A stretch of 64,000 bases of DNA, from contig CP053449.1 in the NCBI GenBank assembly GCA_013285465.1, positions 1,509,540-1,573,539 on the forward strand, given 5' to 3'. Of this stretch, positions 15,453-17,890 are shown in pieces. This DNA is from Pseudomonadota bacterium (lineage in GTDB: Bacteria > Pseudomonadota > Alphaproteobacteria > Micavibrionales > CSBR16-224). Made by a program: the position numbers and the translations under genes. Every line of letters starts with the position of its first letter. The stretch's first letter is position 1. The notes beneath the pieces were generated by a model. It did no database searches and was not told the DNA's origin. It was given only the letters and a program-made list of their open reading frames with translations.

Positions 15453-15576
15453 AACGGAAATTCCTTATAATTATAAAATCAATGACAAACAGATTGTTTT
15501 TATACCATAACTAATTTATTGATGTCACGAATGTTTTCTGGCTTTATGCAACCTCCCCCAAGTGAGGAAAGGAAAG

Positions 15577-15774
15577 ATGATGAAGACAAAGATAATAGCC
15601 TTAGCGCTTATTGTCATTGCATTGGGTTTGGCGCTCTTCCTGTTTCGCAATGCCGCACATCAAACGCAAAACAGCAATTCCATTGAACGCGGATTAAATG
15701 CGAAAAACGCCGCTGCGGAAAGACAAAACGCTGTTCCCGTCAGACCTGCCCAGCCCGGTAACAGGGCAAGGTAG
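15577..15774 (+). CDS. Small single-helix membrane protein
   Basis: 65 residues from the ATG at 15577, preceded by a purine-rich site (GAGGAAAGGAAAG); the ATG at 15580 is equally possible. One hydrophobic helix (about 5-23, IIALALIVIALGLALFLF) is followed by a 40-residue polar tail rich in Asn, Arg and Pro. Could equally be a long signal peptide. It diverges from the secreted Gln-rich protein. No family recognised. Confidence 0.5.
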   Translation: MMKTKIIALALIVIALGLALFLFRNAAHQTQNSNSIERGLNAKNAAAERQNAVPVRPAQPGNRAR

Positions 15775-16531: not shown

Positions 16532-16549
16532 GCATAGGAGTGACGGCAA

Positions 16550-16780
16550 ATGAGCGACGAAAAAATGAACCTTGAAGAACAATCTGAACATGAAGAAAAT
16601 ACAGTACCTTCCGAAAGTACTCCATCAAGAAAAAAGAAATGGAAATTCTATATTGCTCTTGCCGTATTCGCAGGGGTATCTCTTGCACTCGCCTATATGA
16701 GTAAAAAATTTTCAACTCCACCTCCTAGCATCCATCATACGACACTAGGGGGTGGCTGCCCCACCTGCGGATTAGGATGA
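16550..16780 (+). CDS. Putative membrane-anchored MNIO substrate peptide (RiPP precursor)
   Basis: 76 residues with three parts: an acidic leader (1-26), a Lys-rich stop (RKKKWK) and one membrane helix (about 32-50), then a short tail ending IHHTTLGGGCPTCGLG with Cys70 and Cys73. The Gly-flanked CxxC at the very C-terminus, together with a DUF692-type enzyme gene 7 bp downstream, marks it as the likely modified peptide. Positive charge before the helix predicts N-in/C-out, so the Cys motif would end up in the periplasm. There is a good ribosome site (AGGAG, 16536-16540). No known precursor family (MbnA, BufA, TglA) is matched in full. The role is inferred from context and motif. Confidence 0.65.
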   Translation: MSDEKMNLEEQSEHEENTVPSESTPSRKKKWKFYIALAVFAGVSLALAYMSKKFSTPPPSIHHTTLGGGCPTCGLG

Positions 16781-16787
16781 AGCTTAA

Positions 16788-17642
16788 ATGACCTATGAAA
16801 CCGTGCGCACGGGAATTGCATTTTTTCCAAATGATGCGGCGCGGCCTGTCTATCAACAACTGATTGATACGGGGCATGTTGCCGCCCTTGAATGGACGGT
16901 AGACACGCAATCAATCACAGCAGCAGACCAGAAAATTCTGCAAAGCTACGCTGAAAAACAATCATTGGTCGGTCACGGCGTACATTACTCTGTTTTATCC
17001 GTAGGAGGAGAAAAACAACGCCGCACATGGCTTGAAAGGTTAAAGACATGCCCATGGACAGCACATTACACACAACTATCTGTGCATTTCGGCTTTTCAA
17101 GCGGCTGGATATTCAAATATGGCGCTCCCTTACCTGTTCCCTATTCACAAGAAGCCGTTGCCATCGGTCATAAAAATATGGCGACGCTTGCCCAAGCACT
17201 ACCATGCCGCATCGGCCTGGAAAACCTTGCGCTAGGCTTCTGCCGGAAAGATGCTGAAAATCAGGGCGCTTTCTTAGAAGAGTTACTAGCACCTTTTCAA
17301 GGGTATTTACTGCTTGATCTGCACAATCTCTATTGTCAGGCAAAGAACTTTACAATAGAACTTCCAGCTCTTCTCAAAACGTATCCGCTAAAGCATGTGG
17401 AAGAAATGCATATCTCCGGCGGTAGCTGGTCACGCGGTAGCCATACAAAAAATATTCGCCGGGATACACATGATCATGCCGTCCCTGATGAAGTCTGGGA
17501 TATATTGCCCACCGCTTTAGAGGCCTGCCCCAATTTAAAATATATCTTTCTGGAACAACTACCGCACACTCTTGGCAACAAAGAGGCCGCCAATGCATAT
17601 ATTACGGATTACAAAAAACTTGTGAAGATCGTGAAAGGTTGA
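16788..17642 (+). CDS. DUF692/MNIO-family iron enzyme (MbnB/TglH/ChrH-like), divergent
   Basis: 284 residues; the DUF692 TIM barrel is usually about 270-300. Candidate metal ligands follow the family order: His66 (GVHYS), His100 (SVHFG), Glu145 (LENLA), Asp177/His179/Asn180 (LLDLHNLY), His208 (MHISGG), Asp226-His228-His230 (RRDTHDH, then VPDEVWDIL) and Glu256 (FLEQ). Members are multinuclear non-haem iron oxygenases that remodel Cys or Asp/Asn residues in peptide substrates (methanobactin, 3-thiaglutamate, bufferins). It lies between a Cys-tailed membrane peptide (7 bp upstream) and a 70-residue protein (3 bp downstream). The usual DUF2063 partner gene is absent. Assignment to the fold is firm; the reaction is unknown. 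Confidence 0.85.
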   Translation: MTYETVRTGIAFFPNDAARPVYQQLIDTGHVAALEWTVDTQSITAADQKILQSYAEKQSLVGHGVHYSVLSVGGEKQRRTWLERLKTCPWTAHYTQLSVHFGFSSGWIFKYGAPLPVPYSQEAVAIGHKNMATLAQALPCRIGLENLALGFCRKDAENQGAFLEELLAPFQGYLLLDLHNLYCQAKNFTIELPALLKTYPLKHVEEMHISGGSWSRGSHTKNIRRDTHDHAVPDEVWDILPTALEACPNLKYIFLEQLPHTLGNKEAANAYITDYKKLVKIVKG

Positions 17643-17645
17643 TGA

Positions 17646-17858
17646 ATGCTGCGCAACCCGTTTAAAAAGAAAACACCGCTGGAGCATTTTCAAACTCGGC
17701 TTTTGCAGATGCTCGCCTTGCAAATGCCCCCCGAGAAAATTACAGAGCAACTTTTGCAAGACAAACAACTTGCCGATTATCACGCCTATATTAAAGAATT
17801 TGATCCCGCCATGATCGAGATTGCAGAAGAGCTCGTCCAAAAATGGAGCGGACGATAA
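17646..17858 (+). CDS. Small helical protein, third gene of the MNIO operon
   Basis: 70 residues, no membrane segment, all-helical and charged (PLEHFQTRLLQMLALQ, PEKITEQLLQDKQL, PAMIEIAEELVQKW). The ATG is 3 bp after the MNIO stop, so expression is coupled. By position it may replace the DUF2063/RRE-type partner that normally presents the peptide to the enzyme, but it shows no sequence likeness that I recognise. A bidirectional terminator follows directly, which ends the operon. Confidence 0.65.
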   Translation: MLRNPFKKKTPLEHFQTRLLQMLALQMPPEKITEQLLQDKQLADYHAYIKEFDPAMIEIAEELVQKWSGR

Positions 17859-17864
17859 AAAAGA

Positions 17865-17890
17865 CCGGAAAATTATTTTCCGGCCTTTTC
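17865..17890. terminator. Bidirectional rho-independent terminator (MNIO operon / pepA)
   Basis: CCGGAAAAT/ATTTTCCGG forms a 9-bp perfect stem (17865-17873 with 17875-17883). It has CCTTTT on the right and, read from the other strand, CTTTTTT on the left. It lies between the convergent 17646 and pepA genes. Confidence 0.8.

Follow-up and report, generated by a model that had tools for sequence, protein, structure and literature searches.

We have found, in the 64,000-nucleotide stretch analysed here (the window; contig CP053449.1 of an alphaproteobacterium of the Micavibrionales), a locus of the ChrH/DybH/MelH type in which the helical partner, Hc, is encoded separately. The motif, the enzyme subfamily, the partner and the gene order of this unit are established at the level of sequence. 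The explanation that we favour, and hold to be somewhat probable, is that of a minimal three-gene ChrH-type RiPP unit whose product is modified in the cytosol and then anchored in the membrane. Membrane-tethered MNIO products are already known; of a ChrH-type member with a transmembrane helix, we found no example within the open-licence literature. The features of the unit are as follows.

16536–16540, + strand: Shine-Dalgarno sequence AGGAG of the precursor gene, with 9 bases between its end and the ATG
16550–16780, + strand: precursor gene, 76 aa, an ORF with a CPxCGxG end directly upstream of the MNIO gene
16550–16627, + strand: acidic leader, residues 1–26, predicted to be cytosolic
16628–16645, + strand: basic patch RKKKWK, residues 27–32, suggesting a positive-inside orientation
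16646–16699, + strand: hydrophobic segment, residues 33–50, a signal anchor or, less likely, a cleavable signal peptide with a long n-region
16700–16777, + strand: 26-residue tail, residues 51–76, predicted from the charge distribution to be periplasmic
16757–16777, + strand: CPTCGLG, predicted MNIO modification site (Cys70 and Cys73), fitting the CPxCGxG of the ChrH/DybH subfamily (PMC12636315)
16788–17642, + strand: ChrH-type MNIO, 284 aa, catalytic TIM barrel only (Pfam, NCBIfam, trees and fold)
17646–17858, + strand: Hc, a free-standing 70-aa protein like MelHc that represents the C-terminal helical domain, in the MNIO frame behind TGA TGA
17865–17883, + strand: putative terminator hairpin downstream of the three genes, of a kind no more frequent in the region than in shuffles

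The enzyme and its separate helical partner

The MNIO matched Pfam PF05114 (2.3e-32) and the ChrH model NCBIfam NF050165 (2.4e-73, 247.3 bits). This score does not reach the 600-bit equivalog cut-off of NF050165, nor was that cut-off reached in any of 395 genomes sampled at class level around a Pontibacter genome. With other models the MNIO scored 94 bits (BufB), 77 bits (HvfB) and 18.5 bits (MbnB, E 0.0011). When the stops were read through, the NF050165 match extended across the Hc ORF to position 361 of 363, and the helical C-terminal domain of the ChrH/DybH/MelH subfamily is found in that ORF. By BLAST, Hc resembled the separate helical protein of locus L008 (37% of 57 residues, 5e-15), whose genome appears Melainabacteria-like, given that its precursors resemble MelA and its Hc is unfused; it also matched the Hc of the order relatives L022 and L023 (about 1e-14 to 1e-15) and, weakly, the C-terminus of a fused Hymenobacter enzyme (35% of 52, 3e-5). 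A tree built from 22 MNIOs separated 17 rows of ChrH type, the window MNIO among them, from the other five with 100/100 support and, at 100/99, placed the window MNIO together with its two relatives in the order; the window MNIO also shares the 52 columns that are invariant across the 17 rows. By these sequence comparisons, the MNIO belongs to the ChrH/DybH/MelH clade. The predicted fold of the read-through chain of MNIO and Hc had a mean pLDDT of 90.0, and its best PDB matches were TglH and MbnB. Because the ChrH score, the read-through match, the Hc homology, the tree and the fold agree, we assign the locus to the ChrH/DybH/MelH type, with Hc as a protein of its own. At 17640–17648, TGA TGA alone parts the MNIO from Hc in one frame, a layout one step short of the fused architecture of the Bacteroidota enzymes.

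Might the product instead bind copper, as a bufferin- or methanobactin-like peptide would? Membership of the MNIO superfamily, the two His residues in the precursor tail and a bufferin-like locus elsewhere in the genome speak for such a product, but the unit holds no BufC- or MbnC-type partner, its motif and clade are ChrH-type, and the DybA product is without a bufferin-like chromophore (PMC12636315); we consider this reading very improbable. A bufferin as such was rejected, with DUF2063 (BufC) absent from the three genes and a hydrophobic core that starts at residue 35 and is not N-terminal. Methanobactin was likewise rejected on the MbnB score and the lack of an MbnC match among the genes scanned. 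The other locus in the same genome lies on contig G000:C1 at about 555815–557927 (L045, 6816–8928) and comprises a 128-aa ORF that is rich in Cys and Lys and hydrophobic at its N-terminus, followed by a 549-aa fusion of MNIO (PF05114) and DUF2063; by sequence, it looks like a bufferin locus with a fused enzyme and BufC-type partner.

The precursor

The precursor ORF runs from an ATG at 16550 to a TGA at 16778–16780, and the MNIO starts 7 bases past this stop, so that a CPxCGxG-ending precursor adjoins the MNIO as in the subfamily. Residues 1–26 include eight acidic residues and one Lys, residues 33–50 are the sole hydrophobic stretch, and the tail that follows reads SKKFSTPPPSIHHTTLGGG then CPTCGLG. 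The ORF translation thus bears out the anatomy given in the initial annotation, namely an acidic leader, a Lys cluster, one hydrophobic segment and a 26-residue tail. That annotation also had the peptide end in CxxC; Cys70 and Cys73 are indeed present, and are the only Cys residues of the 76, but the ending is better read as the C-terminal CPTCGLG. A DNA pattern for CPxCGxG plus stop occurred once in the 2.67-Mb genome, at the precursor ORF, which exceeds chance; the reversed-pattern control occurred nowhere, and the pattern was absent from six same-family genomes.

The precursor had no above-cut-off family match in Pfam or NCBIfam, and tblastn with it found no homologue on the plasmids searched. 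A contig search with a single protein as query, a scan of viral contigs and an Rfam scan of the region likewise gave no match, and a promoter/terminator scan of the region returned fewer sites than in shuffles. Three other readings of the peptide were considered. First, an internal start that would give a short n-region was rejected, as ATG, GTG and TTG are absent between residue 6 and the helix. Second, a lipoprotein was rejected because the precursor has no third Cys; the lipobox Cys of lipidated DAG-RiPPs is missing behind the hydrophobic core. Third, with regard to Tat export, the RKKKWK patch does not contain the RR pair of the Tat motif.

Anchor or cleavable signal

Is the helix kept, or is it removed? 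As yardsticks, we used E. coli proteins that we take to be 18 cleaved signal peptides and nine type II anchors. The precursor helix (KD19 1.91; core sum 23.7) falls within the range of the signal peptides (KD19 1.17–2.09; core sum 16.6–27.6) and below eight of the nine anchors (KD19 2.40–2.69; core sum 29.9–35.9), TonB (KD19 1.84; core sum 21.6) being the only anchor as weak. The length ahead of the core, 34 residues, is anchor-like (anchors 8–71). The net charge is +4 over the 15 residues before the core and +2 after it, and an N-in/C-out orientation is therefore well supported by the charge rule, with the Cys tail predicted to be periplasmic, as had been proposed. Cleavage sites were scored with a small matrix that found the true site in 14 of the 18 signal peptides when each was left out in turn. 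The best site in the precursor, VSLA46↓LA, scored 7.1, a value inside the span of the true sites; the highest in-helix site among the anchors scored 5.9 (FtsN).

These values bear on the alternative that the helix belongs to a Sec signal peptide, one with a long n-region, which signal peptidase I would cut near residues 46–48 after modification. A ring-bearing peptide of about 28–30 residues would then be set free in the periplasm, the fate put forward for ChrA and MelA1, both of which carry signal peptidase I signals (PMC12636315). The hydrophobicity and the site score are consistent with this alternative. Against it stand the 34 residues ahead of the core, compared with 3–15 in the 18 signal peptides, and the two Lys residues immediately after the hydrophobic segment; moreover, 240 of 2000 shuffles of residues 33–52 reached the site score, and VSLA46↓LA is therefore weak evidence for cleavage. 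We accordingly regard cleavage as doubtful and predict that the helix is likely kept as an anchor, likely and not more because it lies in the signal-peptide range and has a possible cleavage site. The earlier proposal that the product stays tethered to the membrane is thus plausible, tempered by a cleavage-like site that scores as true sites do. Upstream of the unit, on the same strand, a 66-aa ORF (15574–15774) carries a strongly hydrophobic helix at its N-terminus (core sum 43.0, KD19 2.82) and no above-cut-off family match in Pfam or NCBIfam.

Proposed mechanism

The ribosome tunnel conceals roughly 30–40 residues. Since only 26 residues follow the helix, the peptide would be released before the helix is exposed; insertion would therefore be post-translational, and CPTCGLG would first become accessible in the cytosol. 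There, the free motif would be recognised by the MNIO together with Hc and oxidised with the loss of 4 H, giving a Cys70–Cys73 macrocycle beside a hydantoin, with or without S-methylation. We infer this chemistry at CPTCGLG from the subfamily, whose substrate signature is CPxCGxG and whose products carry a macrocycle and hydantoin (−4 Da, or +10 Da with S-methyl); in these systems DybH recognises the C-terminal motif alone, and MelH requires MelHc (PMC12636315). The modified peptide would then insert N-in/C-out, guided by the basic patch, and the helix would most likely be retained as an anchor. That modification in the cytosol precedes insertion, as the initial annotation had reasoned, is well supported by this line of argument and by the published order for DybA, which is modified first, then lipidated and anchored, its modification keeping pace with export (PMC12636315). 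The rearranged ring may thus come to lie on the outer, periplasmic face of the inner membrane, where, as a guess, it could be a tethered binder of a ligand near the outer leaflet, such as a metal or a lipid head group.

Leader loss is common among RiPPs, which counts for a further alternative: that the peptide is anchored first and then freed by an envelope protease, the product being secreted. TMcins, which form another class, undergo cleavage at the membrane (PMC13252029), but neither a protease nor a transporter is present in the three-gene unit, and we consider such later release improbable.

Relation to known systems

The closest layout is that of MelA1/MelH/MelHc of Melainabacteria, which shares the separate small helical protein and a C-terminal Cys-Gly substrate motif; MelA1, however, has a mass of 34 kDa and a signal peptidase I signal, whereas the window precursor has 76 aa and a central helix (PMC12636315). 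DybA/DybH, the DAG-RiPP system of Dyadobacter, is alike in its small CPxCGxG-ending precursor upstream of the MNIO and in its membrane-bound product, as predicted for the window peptide; it differs in that DybA owes its anchoring to lipids attached to a lipobox Cys, a residue missing from the window peptide, and in that DybH is a fused enzyme, whereas MNIO and Hc are separate in the window (PMC12636315). With ChrA/ChrH (chryseobasin) the unit has the motif and the enzyme family in common, but its three genes do not include those for DUF1772 (ChrI), ChrE and ChrP, its hydrophobic segment is central and not N-terminal, and its MNIO is unfused to the helical domain (PMC10214503). TMcins are RiPP precursors with a transmembrane helix, as predicted for the window peptide, that are acted on by other, unrelated enzymes; unlike the window unit, they are Gram-positive, with disulfide chemistry and a secreted pore former (PMC13252029).

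Methanobactin and bufferins had been named as the relatives of the window peptide, and its tethering had been contrasted with soluble or secreted MNIO substrates. The first was a misassignment, the relatives being those of the ChrH/DybH/MelH subfamily; the second is outdated because membrane-tethered products, the lipidated DybA and NedA, are already published, their lipid anchoring having been shown experimentally. Membrane-bound MNIO substrates have also been predicted, namely MerC-bufferin fusions, TIGR04222 proteins and a TM-preceded EGKCG domain (PMC12452194). We therefore see the window unit as a variant of the ChrH kind, for which the anatomy first described is sound and the tethering plausible. 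In the main text of PMC12636315, the word "transmembrane" occurs once, about an unrelated protein, and Pseudomonadota, Alphaproteobacteria and Proteobacteria go unmentioned; the unit is a compact, partner-separate three-gene system in a group for which the cited literature, as far as it was covered, reports none.

Distribution of ChrH-type loci and their precursors

How widespread are such enzymes and such precursors? A ChrH-type MNIO was found in 3/142 genomes of the window's order, in 1/385 of its class sample (E 1e-20) and in 1/398 of its phylum sample (E 1e-35). Around the L008 genome the counts were 2/292 (phylum sample) and 27/174 (class sample), and around the Pontibacter genome 7/395 (class sample) and 9/167 (order sample); these samples overlap, some genomes being common to several. 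In two same-family genomes the aminopeptidase flank is without the three-gene unit, which is therefore patchy. Among plasmids, the window's aminopeptidase found its best hits in Azospirillum, at about 47%, in line with an alphaproteobacterial origin.

We examined 52 loci, one of which (L104) gave no MNIO ORF by the motif rule. Hand labelling of the 52 gave 14 lipobox precursors, 16 large proteins, seven small precursors with an N-terminal secretion-type core, four with a central helix, two with no hydrophobic segment and nine undetermined. Automatic classing of 51 loci gave 14 lipobox, 13 large, eight signal-peptide-like, five with no hydrophobic core, three anchor-like and eight in which no precursor was found (L018, L076, L077, L092, L093, L094, L095 and L096). 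Larger flanks yielded candidate precursors about 3 kb upstream for L018 and L076 and downstream for L094, and none for L077, L092, L093, L095 and L096. The automatic procedure put L085 with the signal-peptide-like class after trimming it to an inner Met; from the first ATG, its core begins at residue 21.

The central helix is thus not unique to the window locus: it recurs in L070 (two peptides), L085 and L091, the four loci falling in two distant groups. In hydrophobicity, the helices of L070a, L085 and L091 nearly match the E. coli signal anchors other than TonB, their core sums (30.4, 31.3 and 30.3) lying inside the range of those anchors and their KD19 (2.29–2.39) just below it; L070b is weak like the window helix (core sum 22.7, KD19 1.93), and a lipobox is absent from the precursors of all three loci. 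The L091 precursor has a net charge of −3 before the core, contrary to the charge rule. The same leader-helix-tail plan, which the initial annotation had suggested looking for in homologues, therefore exists in three other loci, but not among the window's nearest relatives: L022 and L023 have soluble Lys/Pro-rich precursors ending in CPGCGMG or CPACGRG and no membrane segment, so that the helix is not fixed in the window's clade. On a tree of the 52 loci the central-helix label needs three changes, and the plan is therefore not demonstrably one inherited trait; the base uniting the four loci is weakly supported (43/75). As for the conservation of Cys70 and Cys73, 28 of 30 precursors shorter than 150 aa have the Cys pair, a tally that is partly circular because the search itself targeted C-terminal Cys-Gly motifs. 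The pair is missing from L029 and L075, each of which is probably a fragment of a large-protein precursor; the first motif position is without Cys in 12 of 43 loci, all of large-protein types by hand label.

We give even chances to a further ChrH-type delivery route, in which a precursor with an uncleaved central helix would be modified while soluble, inserted in a tail-anchored-like manner and its ring displayed periplasmically. If secretion, a lipid anchor, 30-kDa proteins and a transmembrane helix all deliver the same ring, then it probably acts in the envelope; the remainder of the precursor would then be a delivery device, and the search for a target would be narrowed.

Several loci showed arrangements of their own. 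In L029 (G1239:C41), whose genome comes from the Pontibacter class sample, the unit is split as in Melainabacteria and has a TPR-like precursor, which reflects either transfer or contamination. L109 and L110 (G1625 and G1630) each encode a fused ChrH-type MNIO; the two enzymes are close relatives, and no precursor could be recognised in their vicinity. In L110 the usually kept GGS motif is GGR and a homoserine-kinase-like gene lies upstream, and these enzymes perhaps act on a different substrate. L024 and L025 each have four tandem small precursors before one MNIO, and their last motifs vary (CPPCGMG, CPGCGMG, CEACGRG and CGKCGKG).
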